Program-made: the position numbers and the translations under genes
The notes under the pieces: model-generated
What the model saw: only the letters and a program-made list of their open reading frames with translations
Database searches by the model: none
Told to the model about the DNA's origin: nothing
From: Desulfatitalea alkaliphila
GTDB lineage: Bacteria > Desulfobacterota > Desulfobacteria > Desulfobacterales > Desulfosarcinaceae
Assembly: GCF_022968795.1 (NCBI RefSeq)
Contig: NZ_JALJRB010000011.1
Span: 62,001-126,000 of the forward strand
Length of the DNA: 64,000 nt
Reading direction: 5' to 3'
Part shown: one piece after another, positions 3,840-18,471 of the stretch
How positions within the stretch are numbered: the first letter of the stretch is position 1
Layout: each line of letters begins with the position of its first letter

Positions 3840-3886
3840 AAACAACCTCCAAATCAATCCAAGAAGTAAATATAAAAGGAAACATA

Positions 3887-3922
3887 CCTTCCCTTAAAAC
3901 TTAACACTTAAAACTTAAAACT
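3887..3922 (-). repeat. 36-nt heptamer-built repeat, copy A
   Basis: Read on the minus strand this is a chain of TTTTAAG/TGTTAAG heptamers, 34 of 36 bases identical to the terminal arms of the element at 8325-8635. It starts 26 bases after the stop codon of the ligase alpha gene ending at 3949. Each unit contains TTAA, which gives a stop codon on both strands. Confidence 0.85.
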
Positions 3923-3948: not shown

Positions 3949-5385
3949 TCAACCACCCGGTTCGCCCCTCCGCCTGACTTTCGCATATTCTACCAACGCC
4001 CCCATCCCCCGCGCACACTGCTCCGGATAACTGTACACAGGGATACCCCCTTGGCCCAATATCGCCTCCATGATGTCGTTCTCCAGGGGTGCGAAGCGCA
4101 GGCAGATCACCGGCTTGCCGTACTTGCGAGGCAGCGCGGCGTAGCGCCGGCCGCCTTCGACGGCGATGCGCACCGCCTCGGGCAGATCTTCGGCGTCGGG
4201 ATCGATCTTCAGACTGCTGTCGAACAGCTGGGGGCTCACCGGCACATTGCTGATCACCCCGTCGATGTAATCGAGCTTGAGAAACATCTCGATGATCTCG
4301 GCTTCTTGCAGGGCGGTGCGGTGACTGCCGGCAAAATCCACCGGGTTGCGGGCCGCCGGTGCATGGCCCGGCAGCAGCGCGCTGATGCGCCGGGCGGTGT
4401 CGGCGTCCAGTTCCGGCAGCGCGATCCCCAGCGCCGTGCAGGCGTCCGTGCCGACCACGCCCTGGCCGCCGCTGCCGAGGATGGCCACCCGGTTGCCCCG
4501 AGGCAGGGGCAGGCCGGAAAGGGCCTGGGCCATTTCGAAGAGGTGAAAGGACTCGGCGGCCTGCAGCAGGCCGATCTGCCGGCACATGCTGTCGAAGACC
4601 GCCGCCGATCCGGCGATGGAGGCGGTGTGGGACATGGCGGCCCGCTCGGCGGCCGCCGAACGGCCGGCCTTGTAAACGATGATCGGCTTGCGGCGCACCA
4701 CCCGCCGGGCGGTATCGAAAAAACGGGCGCCGTCCTTGAGCCCTTCGAGATAAAGCACGATCACCCGGGTATCATCGTCCTCGGCCAGGTAATCCAGGTA
4801 GTCCGACACCTCCAGATCGGCCTGGTTGCCGATACTGATGAATTTGCTCAAGCCGTAGCCCTGGGTGGCGGCCACCTGGGCCATGGAAACGCCGAAAGTG
4901 CCGCTCTGGGAGACAAAGGCGATGGGACCGGTTTTGGGGCGTTTGGGAAAGCAAAGACTCAGCTCCCCGGCCGCGCTCCAGATGCCCATACAGTTGGGAC
5001 CCACCAGGCGGATGCCGCCGGAGCGGGCCACCACCGTCATCTCTTCCTGCAAACGGGCACCCTGCTCTCCGGTTTCGGCGAATCCGGCGGTGATCACCAC
5101 CGCGCCCTTGATGCCCCGCGCGACACAGGCGCGCAACACCTGCGGCACCGTCTCCGTAGGCGTGGCCACCACCGCCAAATCCACCGGCCCCGGCACGGAG
5201 GCCAGGTCCGGGTAAGCCTTGAGCCCCAGAATCTCCTTCCGGCGGTGGTTGATGGGATAGATGGCACCGGGATACCCGGTCTGCAAAGGCCGCTGCACCA
5301 ACCGATGCCCCCACTTACCGAATGTATCAGAGGCCCCCACCACCGCAATGGCCCGCGGCCTGAAAATCGCCTCCATAGCTTGCAT
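3949..5385 (-). CDS. ADP-forming acyl-CoA ligase, alpha subunit (copy 2)
   Basis: A second alpha subunit of about 478 residues, clearly paralogous to the product at 1403-2875: CoA-binding domain (IAVVGASDTFGKWGHR), GPNCMGIWS, SQSGTFGVSMAQ, SIGNQADLEV and the phosphohistidine motif SHTASIAGS. No beta subunit gene adjoins it; it probably shares the one at 702-1406. The start is uncertain. ATG 5385 fits the domain start, but GGAGGGG upstream is better spaced for a TTG 15 bases earlier, and the frame is open to a GTG at 5433. Same-strand placement after lpd suggests one operon with the oxoglutarate dehydrogenase genes. Confidence 0.88.
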   Translation of the reverse strand: MQAMEAIFRPRAIAVVGASDTFGKWGHRLVQRPLQTGYPGAIYPINHRRKEILGLKAYPDLASVPGPVDLAVVATPTETVPQVLRACVARGIKGAVVITAGFAETGEQGARLQEEMTVVARSGGIRLVGPNCMGIWSAAGELSLCFPKRPKTGPIAFVSQSGTFGVSMAQVAATQGYGLSKFISIGNQADLEVSDYLDYLAEDDDTRVIVLYLEGLKDGARFFDTARRVVRRKPIIVYKAGRSAAAERAAMSHTASIAGSAAVFDSMCRQIGLLQAAESFHLFEMAQALSGLPLPRGNRVAILGSGGQGVVGTDACTALGIALPELDADTARRISALLPGHAPAARNPVDFAGSHRTALQEAEIIEMFLKLDYIDGVISNVPVSPQLFDSSLKIDPDAEDLPEAVRIAVEGGRRYAALPRKYGKPVICLRFAPLENDIMEAILGQGGIPVYSYPEQCARGMGALVEYAKVRRRGEPGG

Positions 5386-5489
5386 CGTCACAGAATCCAA
5401 AAAAACAACCCCTCCAATCCAGCCCGCCACCACTCACTCAAGGAGTAAGGTCTCGCGAAAAACCCACCCCCCATCCAATCGGTAGAATT

Positions 5490-5525
5490 CCTCAACTTAA
5501 AACTTAACACTTAAAACTTAACACT
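5490..5525 (-). repeat. 36-nt heptamer-built repeat, copy B
   Basis: On the minus strand, 34 of 36 bases match the arms of the 8325-8635 element (one TT to TG change in the first heptamer, one A to G in the tail). It begins eight bases after the lpd stop codon. Confidence 0.85.
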
Positions 5526-5533
5526 TCTTTTCA

Positions 5534-6946
<1,413 letters not shown>

Positions 6947-6948
6947 GA

Positions 6949-8271
6949 TTACACCTCCAACAGAAGCCGCTCGGGGTTTTCCACCAGCTCCTTGATCCGT
7001 TTGAGAAAGGTGACCGCTTCGCGGCCGTCCACGATGCGGTGATCGTAGCTCAGGGCCACGTACATCATGGGCCGGATCACGATCTCGTCATCCACCACCA
7101 CCGGCCGCTTCTCGATGCGGTGCATGCCCAGAATCCCGCTCTGGGGCATGTTGAGTATGGGGGTACTGAGCATGGAGCCGTAGACGCCGCCGTTGCTGAT
7201 GGTGAAAGTGCCCCCTTCCAGATCGGCCAGTTCCAGGCGGTTCTCCTTGATTTTGGCCACGTAGTCGAGGATCGCCTTTTCGATCCGGGCGAAGCCCATG
7301 CGCTCGGCATGCCGGATCACCGGCACCACCAGCCCCCGGGGTGTCCCCACGGCCACGCCGATGTGCTGGTAGTTGTGGTAGACGATATCGCTGCCGTCGA
7401 TGAAGCCGTTGACCTCCGGGAACTCCTGCAGCGCGGCCACCGATGCCTTGACGAAAAAGGACATGAACCCCAGGGAGATATCGTGCTTCTCCTTGAAAGC
7501 CTCCTTGTACTCGGCACGCAAGGCCATGGCACGACTCATGTCGATGTCGTTGAAAGTGGTGAGCATGGCGGTGTTCTGCTTGGCTTCCAGCAGCCGGGCG
7601 GCGATACGCTTGCGAATGGGGGACATGGCCTTGCGCACCTCGGCCGGCGGCTGGTCCTTGCCCAGCTCGGCCGGCGGCACACATTCATCGGGCACCCCGG
7701 CCGGCGCCTGCTCCAAAGCCAGCAGCACATCCCCCTTGGTAATTCGCCCCCCGGGACCGGTGCCGGCGATGCTTGTGGCATCTAGCCCCTTTTCCGCCAC
7801 CAGGCGCCGTACCGCCGGCGACAAAATTGGCGCCCCTTCCCCGCCCTTCTTCTCCGGGGCCTCGCCCTTTTCCTTCGCCTCCGGCCCGGACTTCACTTTC
7901 GCTGCCGATGGCTTCTCCTTCTCCTCCGGCGGCTGCTCTTTTTTATCCTCCTCCGCCGAATCCTCTTTTTCGGCAGACTTCTCTTCCTTCTCCGTCGCCG
8001 CATCCTCGACAGCCGCCTTTTTTTCCGCCGGCTGCTTCTTGCCCGACGGCTCGATCCTGGCCACCACGGCCCCCACCGCCACCGTCTCGCCGGCGGCCAC
8101 CAGGATGGTCAAGGTGCCGGCCACCTCGGCGGTCACCTCCAGGGTCACCTTGTCGGTCTCCAGAACGAACAAAGGCTCGTCCTTCTCCACCACATCGCCG
8201 TCCTGCTTGAACCACTCGGCCAAAACCGCTTCCTGCACGGATTCGCCGACGGTTGGAATTTTGATGTCCAT
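6949..8271 (-). CDS. sucB: 2-oxoglutarate dehydrogenase E2, dihydrolipoyl succinyltransferase
   Basis: 440 residues: an N-terminal lipoyl domain with the lipoylated lysine K41 in ETDKV, a long charged Glu/Lys/Ala linker (about residues 80-145), an E3-binding domain ([17 protein letters not shown] then [14 protein letters not shown]) and the C-terminal acyltransferase domain with [13 protein letters not shown], whose His and Asp are catalytic. It transfers the succinyl group to CoA. AAGGAG lies about nine bases upstream of the start. sucA lies upstream on the same strand but is separated by an unusual 374-base gap that holds the inserted repeat element. Confidence 0.95.
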
Positions 8272-8324
8272 GCAACGTTCTCCTTCCTTGTTCTGAGGGC
8301 GGACATTGAGATTTAATGGAAGAA

Positions 8325-8360
8325 AGTTTTAAGTTTTAAGTGTTAAGTTTTAAGTTAAGG
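8325..8360 (+). repeat. Left terminal arm of the 311-bp insert (copy C)
   Basis: The heptamer-built 36-mer in plus orientation; it is the only copy lying upstream of, and opposite to, the neighbouring gene (sucB). Confidence 0.85.
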
Positions 8361-8389
8361 AATGCTGTCATTGTATTTTTTGTGTGCGG

Positions 8390-8584
8390 CTAACCGCCAA
8401 CATCGAATGGCGAAGCAAAAGCATTGACCGGAATGTGCATGTAGTTGCCATTATTCTTGTCTTTATCTACCGGCAATCCGGCTTTTTGGTCGGCAGGGCT
8501 CCAATGATGATGCGTCAAGCTCGGCCCTTTAATCATCCGTAATGCGTGCATAACCGCACAAGCTCCTACCTCGCCAAGGCGCAT
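8390..8584 (-). CDS. Small open frame inside the 311-bp insert, unrecognised
   Basis: A 64-residue frame (starts MRLGEVGACAVMHALRM, ends ASPFDVGG) fills most of the insert interior. It contains a LTHHHWSPADQ segment and no membrane helix. I do not recognise a family. It has no clear ribosome site and could be a fragment captured between the repeat arms rather than an expressed gene. Confidence 0.25.
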   Translation of the reverse strand: MRLGEVGACAVMHALRMIKGPSLTHHHWSPADQKAGLPVDKDKNNGNYMHIPVNAFASPFDVGG

Positions 8585-8599
8585 CCAATCGACAAACTA

Positions 8600-8635
8600 C
8601 CTTAACTTAAAACTTAACACTTAAAACTTAAAACT
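8600..8635 (-). repeat. Right terminal arm of the 311-bp insert (copy D)
   Basis: Exact reverse complement of 8325-8360. It starts ten bases after the sucA stop codon, the same post-stop position as copies A and B. Confidence 0.85.
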
Positions 8636-8645
8636 ATTTTTAATT

Positions 8646-11387
8646 CTACTTCCCCGCCTCCCCCTTCCCCTTGAGCGCCCCCACCGCCTCATCGATTATC
8701 CGCTCCTGCTCCGCTTTATAAATATTGGGAAAACCGGTGGCCGGGGATGAAGCCGGTTTGCGGCCCACGTAGGTCAGGGGGTGATCGATCAATGCTTGGA
8801 TCAGCGGTCGGACGAACCACCAGCCGCCCATGTTCTCCGGCGCTTCCTGCACCCAGGTCACTTCTTTGGCGCGGGTGTAGCCGGACAGAATCGTTTTGAG
8901 TTGTTCCGTGGGAAAGGGATAATATTGTTCCAAACGGACGATGGCGACGTTGTCGGTTTCCAGCGCCTCGCGGCGCTGCAACAATTGATAGTATATTTTG
9001 CCGCTGCACAGCAGTACTTTGCGGGCCTTGGTCGGTTGCGCCGGGTCGTCCAGCACGGTTTGAAAAGGGCCTTCGGCGATATCGGTCAGGGAAGAGACCG
9101 CCTTCGGATGGCGCAGCAGGCTTTTGGGGGTCATGAGCACCAGCGGTTTGCGGTAGGCGGCCTTGGCCTGGCGGCGCAGCAGGTGGAAATATTGGGCGGG
9201 GGTGGTCACGTCGCACACCAGCATGTTCGCACCGGCGCAAAGCTGCAGAAACCGCTCCAGGCGGGCGCTGGAGTGCTCCGGCCCCAAGCCCTCCCAGCCG
9301 TGGGGCAGCAAAAGGCCCAGTCCGCAGAGCCGTTCCCATTTGGCTTCGCCGCTGGCGATGAACAGGTCCACCACGGCCTGGGCGTTGTTGATGAAATCGC
9401 CGAACTGGGCCTCCCAGAGAGTCAAACCGCGGGGTTGAGCCAGGGCGTAACCGTATTCGAAACCCAGCACCGATGCCTCGGACAAGGGACTGTCGTAGAC
9501 CCGGAAGGGCGCGGCCGGGCCGTCGAGGTGTTGCAGCGGCACGTGGCGTCGCTCGTTTTTGCGATCCACCACCACGGCATGGCGTTGGCTGAAGGTACCG
9601 CGGGCGCTGTCCTGGCCGCTCAAACGGATGGGCGTTCCCTCGGCCAGCAAGGTCGCGAAGGCCAGCGCCTCGGCATTGGCCCAATCGATGCCTTCGCCCT
9701 TTTCCACCGCCTCCAGGCGGCGGCGCAGTAACTGGCCGATCTTGTCGTGGGGTGTGAAGTCGTCCGGCAGGGTGTTGACGGTACGGGCCAATTGCCGCAG
9801 CCGTTCGGGGTCCACGGCGGTGTCCACCGGATCGGAACTGTAACGGCCGCTGAACGGTTCCCACTCCTTGTAAAAGGGGGTTTCGGGAAAGGGGCAGGTG
9901 GTACCGTGCACCTCGGCGTAGGCCTGTTCCATGGCGTCCGTGACCGCCTTTTCCATGCGGGCCGTTTCCTTGGCGGTGATCACCCCCTCTTCGATCAGCG
10001 CTTCCGCGTATAGCTTGTGCAGCGAAGGCCTTTGCCGAATGCGATCATACATGCCGGGCTGCGTGAAGTAAGGTTCGTCGCCTTCGTTGTGGCCGAAGCG
10101 GCGGAAGCACACCACGTCCACCACCACGTCCTTGCCGAAGGCGGCCCGGTAATCGGCGGCCAGACCGATCACATGCACCAGCGCTTCGGGGTTCTCCCCG
10201 TGCACATGGAAGATGGGCACCATCAGCATTTTGGCCACGTCGGTGCTGTAGCGCGTGGAACGGGCATCGTCGGGCAAGGTGGTGTAGCCGATCTGGTTGT
10301 TGATCACCACATGAAGGGTGCCGCCGGTGCCGTACCCTTTGAGCTGGCTCATGTTCAATGTTTCGGCCAAGACCCCCTGACCGGCGAAGGCCGCATCGCC
10401 ATGCAGCAGCAAGGGCACCACCCGGCCGCGGCCCGCCTCGCCGGCCATCTCCTGGCGCGCTCGGGCCACCCCCTCCACCACGGGCGATACCGCTTCCAGG
10501 TGGCTGGGGTTGTTCACCAGCAGCGCCTCTACTCTACCCTCCTGCCCCAGGTCGATTTCGCCCAGGTAGCCCTTGTGATACTTCACATCGCCGGCACCCA
10601 CCACCTGGCTGCTGTCGTAGCAGTTTTCAAACTCGGCCAGCAGCTCGGCCACCGGTCGTCCCAGGATGTTGGTCTGCACGTTCAGCCGGCCACGGTGGGC
10701 CATGCCCAGGATCACCTCCCGAGCGCCTTGTCGTGCCAGCCGGCGCAACAAGGCATCGAGCATGGGGATCACGCCGTCGCCGCCCTCCAGGGAAAAACGG
10801 GTCACGGCCACATAGCGCTTGTTGAAAAACTGTTCGAACAGGGCGGCCCGCACCAGCATTTCCAGAATACGCTTGCGTTGGTCCGGATCGAGGTCCGGAC
10901 GGTTGCGGGATGGCTCCATGCGCTCCTGCAGCCAGCGCCGCTCGTCCGGATCCTGCAAATGCATGTACTCAACGCCCACCGAACGGCAGTAGGTCTCCTT
11001 CAAAATCCGGAGCACTTCCTTCAGGGTGGCCCGCTCTGTGAAAGTCAGTTGGGGCGTTTCCACCTCTTGTTCCAGGTGGTCGTCCGACAAGCCGAAGGCC
11101 TCCAGCGCCAGCAGGGGGTGTTCGGTGGGGCAGGCGCTCAATGGATCCATGCAGGCCAACAGGTGGCCCAGGTCGCGGTAGCGGTGGATCAGCTCGGCCA
11201 CCCTGGCCGCCAAATCCCCCGCCGCGGCGGGTCCGGCCGCCGAAGCGGGTTGCTCCCGGCCGATGTCGAATCCATGAAAAAACAGGCGCCACTCGCGGCC
11301 CACGGATCGGGGATCTTTCCGGTAGCGTGCATACTGCTCGTCGATATAGTCCAGATTCAAGGCTTCGGGTATCTGCATGCTGCTCAT
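8646..11387 (-). CDS. sucA: 2-oxoglutarate dehydrogenase E1 component
   Basis: The 913-residue thiamin-diphosphate enzyme decarboxylates 2-oxoglutarate and passes the succinyl group to the lipoyl arm of SucB. The N-terminal E2-binding segment (LDYIDEQYARYR) is present. The thiamin domain shows GMAHRGRLNVQTNILG, HGDAAFAGQGVLAET and FRRFGHNEGDEPYFTQP. The transketolase-like domain shows YGYALAQP, WEAQFGDFINNAQ and LLPHGWEGLGPEHSSAR. Length is normal for the family. The ATG at 11387 has only a weak GAG ahead of it. It is the first gene of the minus-strand operon, behind the promoter at 11499-11527. Confidence 0.96.
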   Translation of the reverse strand: MSSMQIPEALNLDYIDEQYARYRKDPRSVGREWRLFFHGFDIGREQPASAAGPAAAGDLAARVAELIHRYRDLGHLLACMDPLSACPTEHPLLALEAFGLSDDHLEQEVETPQLTFTERATLKEVLRILKETYCRSVGVEYMHLQDPDERRWLQERMEPSRNRPDLDPDQRKRILEMLVRAALFEQFFNKRYVAVTRFSLEGGDGVIPMLDALLRRLARQGAREVILGMAHRGRLNVQTNILGRPVAELLAEFENCYDSSQVVGAGDVKYHKGYLGEIDLGQEGRVEALLVNNPSHLEAVSPVVEGVARARQEMAGEAGRGRVVPLLLHGDAAFAGQGVLAETLNMSQLKGYGTGGTLHVVINNQIGYTTLPDDARSTRYSTDVAKMLMVPIFHVHGENPEALVHVIGLAADYRAAFGKDVVVDVVCFRRFGHNEGDEPYFTQPGMYDRIRQRPSLHKLYAEALIEEGVITAKETARMEKAVTDAMEQAYAEVHGTTCPFPETPFYKEWEPFSGRYSSDPVDTAVDPERLRQLARTVNTLPDDFTPHDKIGQLLRRRLEAVEKGEGIDWANAEALAFATLLAEGTPIRLSGQDSARGTFSQRHAVVVDRKNERRHVPLQHLDGPAAPFRVYDSPLSEASVLGFEYGYALAQPRGLTLWEAQFGDFINNAQAVVDLFIASGEAKWERLCGLGLLLPHGWEGLGPEHSSARLERFLQLCAGANMLVCDVTTPAQYFHLLRRQAKAAYRKPLVLMTPKSLLRHPKAVSSLTDIAEGPFQTVLDDPAQPTKARKVLLCSGKIYYQLLQRREALETDNVAIVRLEQYYPFPTEQLKTILSGYTRAKEVTWVQEAPENMGGWWFVRPLIQALIDHPLTYVGRKPASSPATGFPNIYKAEQERIIDEAVGALKGKGEAGK

Positions 11388-16457: not shown

Positions 16458-18278
16458 ATGAACACCCCCCGATATATCATCGGCATCGACCTGGGCACCA
16501 CCAACAGCGCGGTGGCCTATGTACCGGCGGACACCGACCGGGTGGAAGAGGCCTCCATCCGGTTGCTGGAAATCCCTCAACTGGTGGACGCGGGGGTGGT
16601 GGCATCGCGCCCCCTGTTGCCCTCCTTCGTGCTGCTGCCCACGGCGCAGGACGTGCCCCGGGATGCCCTGGCCCTGCCCTGGGATCCGAACCCCGGCATG
16701 GCGGTGGGGGAATTTGCCCGCCGGCGCGGCGAGGAGATCCCCCACCGGCTCATCGCTTCGGCCAAGTCCTGGCTGTGCAACACCCTGGTGGACCGCAAGG
16801 CCCGCATCCTGCCCTGGGATGAAGCCGCCGGCGGCAGCCCGTCGGCCACCGAAGGCAAGATGTCGCCGGTGGAGGCTTCCGCCGCCATTTTGCGCCATTT
16901 GCGCCTGGCCTGGAACCATGTGATGGCCCGCTCGCCGTCCGGCGAGACGCAAGCCCACCTGGCCATGGAGAACCAGGCCGTGTTTCTCACGGTGCCGGCC
17001 TCCTTCGACCCCGTGGCACGGGAGTTGACGGTGGCGGCAGCCCAAATGGCCGGTCTGCCCAAGGTCACCCTGCTGGAAGAGCCGCAGGCCGCCTTCTATG
17101 CCTGGATCGCCCATCACGCCGAACGCTGGCGCGAAGTGATGGCGCCGGGCGACCTGGTGCTGGTGTGCGATGTGGGCGGCGGCACCACCGATTTCAGCCT
17201 CATCCAGGTGGCCGACGATCAAGGACGGCTTTCCCTGGAACGCGTGGCCGTGGGCAATCACCTGCTCATCGGCGGCACCAACATGGACCTTACCCTGGCC
17301 TACGCCCTGGCGCGCCAACTGGCCGAGGGCGGCACCCGCCTGGACAGTTGGCAGATGAACGGACTCTGGCAGAGCTGCCGCACGGCCAAGGAGCGGCTGC
17401 TCAGCGAGCCCGACCTGCAGCGCCTGCCGGTGACGGTCCTGGGCCGCGGCAGCCGACTCATCGGCGGCACCATCTCCACCGACCTCACCCGCGAGACCGC
17501 GGAGCATCTGCTGCGGGACGGCTTTCTGCCCCTTTGCGACCGCGAAGACAGGCCGCAGGCCACCAAGCGGGCCGGCATCCAGGAGTTCGGCCTGGCCTTC
17601 GAAGCCGACCCGGCCATCACGCGCCATTTGGCCGCCTTTCTCGACCGCGCCGCGGCCGACGGCCGCTCCGCGGCGCCCACGGCGGTATTGTTCAACGGCG
17701 GCGTGATGAAATCGGCCCTCTTTCGACAACAGATCCTTACCGCCCTCGACCGTTGGTCACCGAGCGGCACCGTGCGGGAAATCGATGGGGCCGACTTCGA
17801 TCTGGCCGTGGCCCGCGGCGCCGCCTGCTACGGACTGGCCAAACAGGGCACGGGCATTCGCATCCGCGGCGGGCTGGGGCGCGCCTATTACATCGGCATC
17901 GCCGCCGCCATGCCCGCCGTGCCGGGCCTGCCCGCCCCCACCAAGGCGCTGTGCGTGGCCGCTTTCGGCATGGAGGAAGGCACCACGGCGGCCATCGCCG
18001 ATCGGGAATTCGTCCTGCGGGTAGGCGAGCCGGTGGTGTTCGATTTCCTCGGTTCCACCACCCGCAAAGCGGATGCGGTGGGCACGGTGGTGGAGGATTG
18101 GGAAGAACAAATCCAACCCATCACCACCCTGGAAACCACATTGGACGGCGAGCCGGGCCAAATACTGCCGGTCACCCTGGAACTGCATGTGACCGAGGTG
18201 GGAACGTTGGAATTGTGGTGTGTTTCGAAGGTGGATGAGCGGCGGTGGAAGTTGGAATGGAATGTGAGGGAGAGATAG
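16458..18278 (+). CDS. Hsp70-family protein with short C-terminus
   Basis: 606 residues. The actin-like ATPase domain is complete: phosphate-1 GIDLGTTNSAVAY at residue 9, connect/phosphate-2 LVCDVGGGTTDFSLI, the adenosine motif region LFNGGVMKSALFR, and SAKSWLCN near the catalytic lysine. After about residue 450 only a short beta-rich stretch follows, without the helical lid or EEVD-like tail of DnaK. It resembles the Hsp70-like proteins found next to DUF2760, not the housekeeping DnaK, and no DnaJ or GrpE gene is nearby. The client or partner may be the product of the next gene. Confidence 0.88.
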   Translation: MNTPRYIIGIDLGTTNSAVAYVPADTDRVEEASIRLLEIPQLVDAGVVASRPLLPSFVLLPTAQDVPRDALALPWDPNPGMAVGEFARRRGEEIPHRLIASAKSWLCNTLVDRKARILPWDEAAGGSPSATEGKMSPVEASAAILRHLRLAWNHVMARSPSGETQAHLAMENQAVFLTVPASFDPVARELTVAAAQMAGLPKVTLLEEPQAAFYAWIAHHAERWREVMAPGDLVLVCDVGGGTTDFSLIQVADDQGRLSLERVAVGNHLLIGGTNMDLTLAYALARQLAEGGTRLDSWQMNGLWQSCRTAKERLLSEPDLQRLPVTVLGRGSRLIGGTISTDLTRETAEHLLRDGFLPLCDREDRPQATKRAGIQEFGLAFEADPAITRHLAAFLDRAAADGRSAAPTAVLFNGGVMKSALFRQQILTALDRWSPSGTVREIDGADFDLAVARGAACYGLAKQGTGIRIRGGLGRAYYIGIAAAMPAVPGLPAPTKALCVAAFGMEEGTTAAIADREFVLRVGEPVVFDFLGSTTRKADAVGTVVEDWEEQIQPITTLETTLDGEPGQILPVTLELHVTEVGTLELWCVSKVDERRWKLEWNVRER

Positions 18279-18310
18279 TGTTAAGTGTTAAGTGTTAAGT
18301 GTTAAGTTTA
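18278..18310 (+). repeat. TTAAGTG heptamer tandem immediately after Hsp70 stop (copy E)
   Basis: The TAG stop runs straight into TG and then TTAAGTG three times and TTAAGTT. It is related to, but more regular than, copies A-D. The rest of the 193-base gap up to the next gene is AG-rich and holds a short AGTTTAA duplicate at 18345-18361 and the ribosome site; nothing else is seen. Confidence 0.8.
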
Positions 18311-18471
18311 ATTCGAAGGATGAAGAGAAGAAAAAGAATAAGAGAAGTTTAAAGTTTAAAGCAAGGTATTTTGTCGATTTGATTGAGGTGTTTGAATTAT
18401 GGGGAGCGGCGTGAAAAGGGCTGGTGAGGTGTGGGAAAGGTTTGGGTTGGATGGTTGGATCGGAGGGTCGT

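Follow-up and report, generated by a model that had tools for sequence, protein, structure and literature searches.

A heptad-ended insert between sucA and sucB of Desulfatitalea alkaliphila, probably a non-autonomous intergenic element

The closest described counterparts of the element reported here are the Correia repeat enclosed elements of Neisseria and the prokaryotic MITEs, which, like it, are short, intergenic, free of a transposase, present in high copy number and bounded by inverted ends. The likeness to Correia elements is one of description, not of Correia sequence, and these elements are reported to invert, which is common to both, and to be cut by RNase III at their inverted repeats (PMC10969869). 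In contrast to Correia elements and MITEs, the family described here has ends made of heptad arrays, encloses heterogeneous interiors and occurs mostly as solo ends, with no clear target duplication and no parent insertion sequence found. REPINs and the REP-RAYT system share inverted doublets that form hairpins, accompanied by singlets and dispersed in extragenic space, and their singlets are described as more diverged than the doublets (PMC3116915); the heptad family differs in its longer AT-rich ends, in singlets that are as conserved as doublets, and in that no RAYT link was seen.

Two further systems combine intergenic placement with tandem repetition. The TAACTGA heptamer repeats of Beggiatoaceae are likewise intergenic tandem 7-mers at many places, but mostly direct repeats directly upstream of start codons (PMC4679880), whereas the heptad arrays form the ends of inverted elements or stand as solos, often after stops and with a conserved core beside them. 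BrickBuilt of Porphyromonas gingivalis is an intergenic inverted-end element that joins a MITE with tandem repeats, and its 23-nt repeat lies between leader and tail units (PMC4596501), whereas the 7-nt repeat of the heptad family is the end itself. The intervening sequences of 23S rRNA share an S23 four-helix-bundle gene with the element at locus L055, where the gene lies between inverted arms, but that element is not in rRNA and is one of 27. In the literature searched, the motif string brought up unrelated papers only, and no description of this family was found by topic; it would be a dispersed repeat family of sulfate-reducing Desulfobacterales so far without a description there, and it offers comparative material for insertion, inversion and cargo capture.

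The insert and its neighbours in the window

The window is the whole stretch of DNA analysed, 64,000 nucleotides at G000:C3:62001-126000 in the 5.07-Mb draft genome of Desulfatitalea alkaliphila (G000), and positions without a contig name are counted in it. An insert of 311 bases with exact 36-bp inverted arms occupies 8325-8635 between two genes on the minus strand: the upstream neighbour at 8646-11387, which we take to be sucA, E1 of 2-oxoglutarate dehydrogenase, in agreement with the naming in a preliminary description of the sequence, and the downstream neighbour at 6949-8271, presumably sucB (E2). Direct comparison confirms what that description had said of the arms, that 8325-8360 and 8600-8635 are exact reverse complements, and its reading of them as built from 7-base units also holds, since they consist of TTTAAGT/GTTAAGT heptads and the pattern is far above chance genome-wide: allowing at most one mismatch, a four-unit heptad pattern has 281 matches in the genome (152 + 129), against none for a control pattern read backwards. 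The insert was likewise rightly said to lack a transposase, its longest ATG frame having 64 aa and a 68-aa stop-to-stop frame having no Pfam match.

Each end of the insert has two parts. On the left, the outer part is a heptad array on the plus strand at 8325-8355, its boundary placed at AGT by conservation over 148 ends, and the second part is an inner core (TAAGGAATGCTGTCATT...) on the plus strand at 8356-8379, placed by end alignment and overlapped by a match at G000:C3:70320-70377 (window 8320-8377) to R1, a sequence model built from 53 ends of G000, G002, G006 and G007. On the right, the minus-strand core at 8581-8604 is placed in the same way (R1 match G000:C3:70583-70640, window 8583-8640), and the minus-strand array at 8605-8635 has its outer edge 10 nt from the sucA stop codon. 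The element end thus defined reaches ~20 nt further inward than the 36-mer arm. Identical 36-mers in both arms occur in the sucA-sucB pair only, 1 of 27 pairs; since two random G000 ends share the 36-mer with a chance of 0.034, the exact identity is not special in itself. Between the cores lies an interior of 201 nt (8380-8580) without detected similarity to the interiors of the other 26 pairs, and nearly all of it is spanned by the 64-aa frame (8390-8584, minus strand, in the sense of sucAB). We rejected this frame as a gene: its codon score is poor, -0.24 per codon against 0.51 and 0.70 for two training genes and 0.04 for the S23 gene, a search of 290 other genomes of the order found no relative, nor did a search of plasmids, and the weak match to Rhizobium phage RR1-B (E 0.2) stands alone. 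It is probably a decayed fragment or a chance frame.

Two solo ends of the same family lie on the minus strand in the window. One (5471-5525; R1 match G000:C3:67473-67530) closely follows the stop of the gene at 5534-6946, which we take to be the lpd-like E3, and the other (3868-3922; R1 match G000:C3:65869-65927) closely follows the stop of the gene at 3949-5433. The preliminary description had the end sequence recurring alone at 3887-3922 and 5490-5525; both are indeed solo ends, but each matches the arm at 34 of 36 positions, not exactly. The gene at 16458-18278 is closely followed at its stop by a further heptad array (18271-18331), which has a poorly conserved inner core and is possibly a decayed solo end.

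Ends, copies and interiors of the family

From the outside inward, a family end consists of a heptad array (AGTTTTAAGTTTTAAGTGTTAAGTTTTAAGT) and then a core (TAAGGAATTCTRTCGATT), and 20 aligned stretches, 19 of which had been chosen for apparently paired arrays, give the array followed by TAAGGAATTCTRTCGATTATA. The outer boundary is fixed: at the A of AGT (AGTTTTAAG) the information per column climbs from 0.08 to 1.61 bits across 148 ends, and strong conservation extends ~50 nt inward from there, one end comprising a 31-nt heptad array and a core of ~20 nt. Two fixed end types of the IRL/IRR kind were considered but are not claimed, with mixed core types in 15 of the 27 G000 pairs against 11.05 expected (fraction 0.066) and no excess in G002 or G007. 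Outside the family boundary, a GC-rich palindrome of the GGGCCCTGGCGGGC type abuts the outer edge of some elements (L039, L048, L054) and produces nested inverted repeats. An element in G006 (L092 946-1109, G006:C37) has the unusual unit TTTCCCC in both arms, unlike most elements. A scan of five loci with Rfam gave only a tRNA above the gathering score, with two miRNA models below it on the L048 repeats.

The family is abundant in this genome and in two congeners. R1 has at least 154 matches in G000 (best 150 of 523 candidates), at least 104 in G002 (best 150 of 541) and at least 91 in G007 (best 150 of 310). Among 149 listed R1 ends in G000, counted after two fragments of one end were merged, neighbours within 700 bp face inward 24 times and in the same direction three times, never outward. 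A copy bearing a transposase was sought as adjacent inward ends 700-5000 bp apart, and none was present among these 149 listed ends, several of which lie at the ends of contigs, where a long copy could hide. A weight-matrix scan of the window and 100 further stretches (101 sequences; 80 of 85 remaining R1 regions were fetched) also gave 149 ends, which form 27 inward pairs and 95 solos, while a first scan, whose matrix lacked the extra G, had found 127 ends, with 18 pairs, and underlies the count of ends inside genes only. Weak partners were found for 4 of 95 solos against 5 of 95 in the control, and array identity is 0.917 for solos and 0.906 for paired ends. Since solos outnumber pairs and are as conserved as paired ends, they may be units in their own right.

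Placement was read relative to genes called with a crude codon-usage gene finder. In the first scan, all 127 ends fall outside genes. Of the inward pairs, 190-746 nt long, 15 are flanked by tandem genes, 9 by convergent and 3 by divergent ones. By raw distances, 74 of the 85 ends that face the 3′ end of a gene lie within 60 nt of its stop (median 18 nt), as against 7 of the 63 that face a gene start (median 156 nt), with one end having no gene in view; in 14 of the 85 cases the gene stop falls within the element. The arrays are themselves rich in stops: all six frames are stopped by 118 of 149 arrays, including both arms of the sucA-sucB copy, whereas composition-matched shuffles do so in 269 of 7450 cases and random 31-mers drawn from the window in 8 of 5000. 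Read as a design, a 7-nt period moves the frame on from one unit to the next, and TTAA supplies a stop on either strand; among ideal arrays, a period of 7 or 8 stops six frames and a period of 6 or 9 does not. We infer that six-frame stopping is the reason why the family tolerates gene ends.

The interiors are heterogeneous. Of the 27, 24 share stretches with another interior, in part only and by eye mostly as other dispersed repeats; no shared interior was found for L049, L055 or the sucA-sucB copy (0 of 201 nt against the other 26). The codon-usage finder called no gene inside any pair. At L055 (1486-1962, G000:C38) a 117-aa gene of the S23 four-helix-bundle family (PF05635, 104 bits) lies between inverted arms, its flanking genes presumably being queA and tgt. 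In a genome of another family, a junction like that of L055 (L316), flanked by what we take to be the same gene types, queA and tgt, holds two R1 matches that face inward but are weak, at 15.5 and 25.1 bits. We rejected S23, or an intervening sequence, as cargo that defines the family: of three PF05635 places in G000 only one falls within an element, and the other two, one of them below the cut-off, have no array nearby.

Gain, inversion and rival explanations

Empty sites were sought at the sucA-sucB junction and, in one further locus (L040), at three more. The gap from the sucA stop to the sucB start is 374 nt in G000, or 63 nt once the 311 nt are subtracted, and in congeners it is 56 (G004), 43 (G009), 64 (G008), 52 (G002), 52 (G007), 63 (G001) and 120 nt (G005); G003 was left out since its contig ends at the junction. 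Comparing these gaps, as the preliminary description had proposed, places the insert in G000 and in none of the seven congeners with a readable gap. The description's view of the junction as normally tight is borne out by the 43-120 nt of these seven but not by G006 and G010, which carry other inserts of ~2 kb there, and this place is possibly a hot spot for insertions. The G006 insert (L090, G006:C47:216173-219800) encodes a protein of 700 aa that matches N6_N4_Mtase; the G010 insert (L091, G010:C196:1-3700) has three frames, of which one matches PIN below the threshold.

At the third L040 junction, about 206 nt of element in G000 are absent from G004, G005 and G008, where the element flanks abut (gaps of -3, -6 and 20 nt); G001, G009 and G002 have other sequence there (158, 124 and 62 nt) and G006 has its own element. 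The upstream frame of G000 has its TAA stop in the first heptad of the G000 element (GAA ACG TTT TAA). At the first junction, judged by eye, elements of differing heptad make-up are found in G000, G002, G007 and G006, a degenerate one in G005, and none in G001, G008 and G009; that congeners have their own heptad variants here (L299, L300, L301, L295) points either to repeated targeting or to elements that were inherited and changed in concert. At the second junction, four congeners have 139-155 nt in which no arrays are visible, and G006 has 373 nt.

The preliminary description had offered two origins for the insert, a non-autonomous mobile cassette or two post-gene repeats that captured the piece between them, and the first is supported by the empty junction in seven congeners together with the 27 inward pairs, the sucA-sucB copy included. 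The outcomes that it had named as arguing against mobility, a conserved interior in all relatives or the lack of other paired arms in the genome, were not found, because the insert is absent in congeners and other inward pairs exist. With a native gap of ~60 nt, the full 311 nt represent a gain; the interior is therefore not intergenic DNA of older date, and capture is the less likely origin, although a stepwise gain at sucA-sucB, of two solos and then filler, may have occurred. We consider it likely that the insert is a dispersed, non-autonomous intergenic element of the MITE or Correia kind that was inserted between sucA and sucB in this lineage. The family is short, non-coding and without a transposase, it has terminal inverted repeats, and relatives have empty sites, all as in MITEs; the G000 copies are not homologous over their whole interiors, as MITE copies would be. 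A search for target-site duplications gives a mean mirrored direct word of 2.63 against 1.87 in shuffles (fraction 0.035 of 200), helped by the flanking palindromes of L039 and L054, and no consistent duplication was seen by eye over the 27 pairs. The insert works like a MITE or Correia-type element, but we file it under neither, because the G000 copies do not share their interiors and because neither a clear target duplication nor, among the listed ends, a relative with a transposase turned up.

For the mechanism, two ends facing inward around a variable interior would be the unit that moves, served by a transposase acting in trans. Such a unit could survive at tightly packed gene ends because an array that stops every frame would drop in without harm, and the interior would then be free space in which other repeats, and once a gene, may accumulate. 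Inversion could arise if the inverted arms recombine or if a polymerase switches template from one to the other; for short inverted repeats in yeast, spacer inversion and arm homogenisation by template switching are described (PMC8604942), although homogenised arms are not the rule in the heptad family. Of the 12 intact G002 pairs, 6 have an orthologous stretch in G007, and 5 of these 6 lie the same way round, while one is inverted between unchanged flanks (score 111 reversed against 53 forward), which instead of inversion may reflect re-insertion in the opposite direction at the same place. A broader proposal, which we advance tentatively and regard as rather doubtful, is that these are invertible miniature elements of several Desulfobacterales families whose ends are universal stop cassettes that land at, after or in place of stop codons and shield a pocket where repeats and small genes collect inside operons. 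If true, this would be a mobile repeat built for little harm in dense bacterial operons, with the end repeat itself stopping translation in every frame.

An unlikely rival explanation takes the 55-nt end as the basic unit, inserted or copied beside stops, and the pairs as two solos that later enclosed acquired DNA. It accounts for the excess of solos (95 against 27 pairs), for their conservation (0.917 against 0.906), for their lack of weak partners above the control (4 against 5 of 95) and for heterogeneous interiors, but independent solos would not give 24 inward and no outward cases among 27 adjacent-end pairs within 700 bp, and the gain of all 311 nt at sucA-sucB and the compact pairs with short interiors in relatives also speak against it. 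An improbable alternative keeps the element for its structure, as a gene-end hairpin for mRNA processing or termination that would set E1:E2 at sucA-sucB. The long hairpin in sucAB mRNA that the preliminary description had envisaged is indeed predicted (RNA MFE -119.8 kcal/mol, z -7.4, 0 of 100 shuffles as good), the copies lie near stop codons, and the reported cutting of Correia inverted repeats by RNase III (PMC10969869) offers a parallel. The inner cores of G000 also speak for it, being, like the outer flanks, slightly more alike within elements than when shuffled (fraction 0.035 each), but the arrays are not (fraction 0.18 in G000 and 0.056 in G006, with 7 pairs), and in G002 and G007 they are less alike than shuffles. 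The two arrays of one element thus resemble each other no more than arrays of different elements do, which gives no support to selection for pairing, and we likewise rejected perfect arms as a general mark of palindrome repair or selected pairing. Most copies, moreover, are solos without a second arm, and seven relatives keep sucA and sucB adjacent without the insert.

Least probable of all, by a small step, is an element of the REPIN/RAYT type mobilised by a Y1 (HUH) transposase. Intergenic inverted doublets with singlets, no clear target duplication and five Y1 transposase matches in the genome fit it, but no end is found at any of the five Y1 (PF01797) loci, each taken together with at most 1.5 kb of flanking DNA, so that the RAYT association of REPINs is not seen here. 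The ends are also unlike the short GTAG/CGTC-tagged REP palindromes described in PMC3733652, and doublets are not the more conserved form, the opposite of what PMC3116915 gives for REPINs. A MITE- or Correia-like element inserted in this lineage remains our preferred reading.

Distribution beyond the genome

At E <= 1e-6, R1 matches are found in 65 of the 291 genomes of the order (best 18 candidates per genome), a number that is not a count of carriers, as in distant genomes many of the matches extend over the array only. The plain heptad pattern occurs no more often in G030 than the control pattern does. The exact core pattern has no match in viral contigs and occurs in 11 stretches of the genome_contigs set, 8 from Desulfobacterales/Deltaproteobacteria MAGs and 3 from Enterobacterales, the latter taken for chance.

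In family f22, where 16 genomes have a match, a recurrent unit of ~275 bp has the same core, TTAAGGAATTCTGTCAATTATAT. Sixteen stretches of it from five genomes have 74-98% mutual identity, which in most of them extends from about -74 to +200 nt relative to the end, and its copies share their interior, as expected of a MITE. Judged by the shared core and the arm layout, the f22 unit appears to be homologous to the Desulfatitalea element. It also has an outer palindrome (CCTGGTCCTTTGGGCCAGG) comparable to that of some Desulfatitalea copies.
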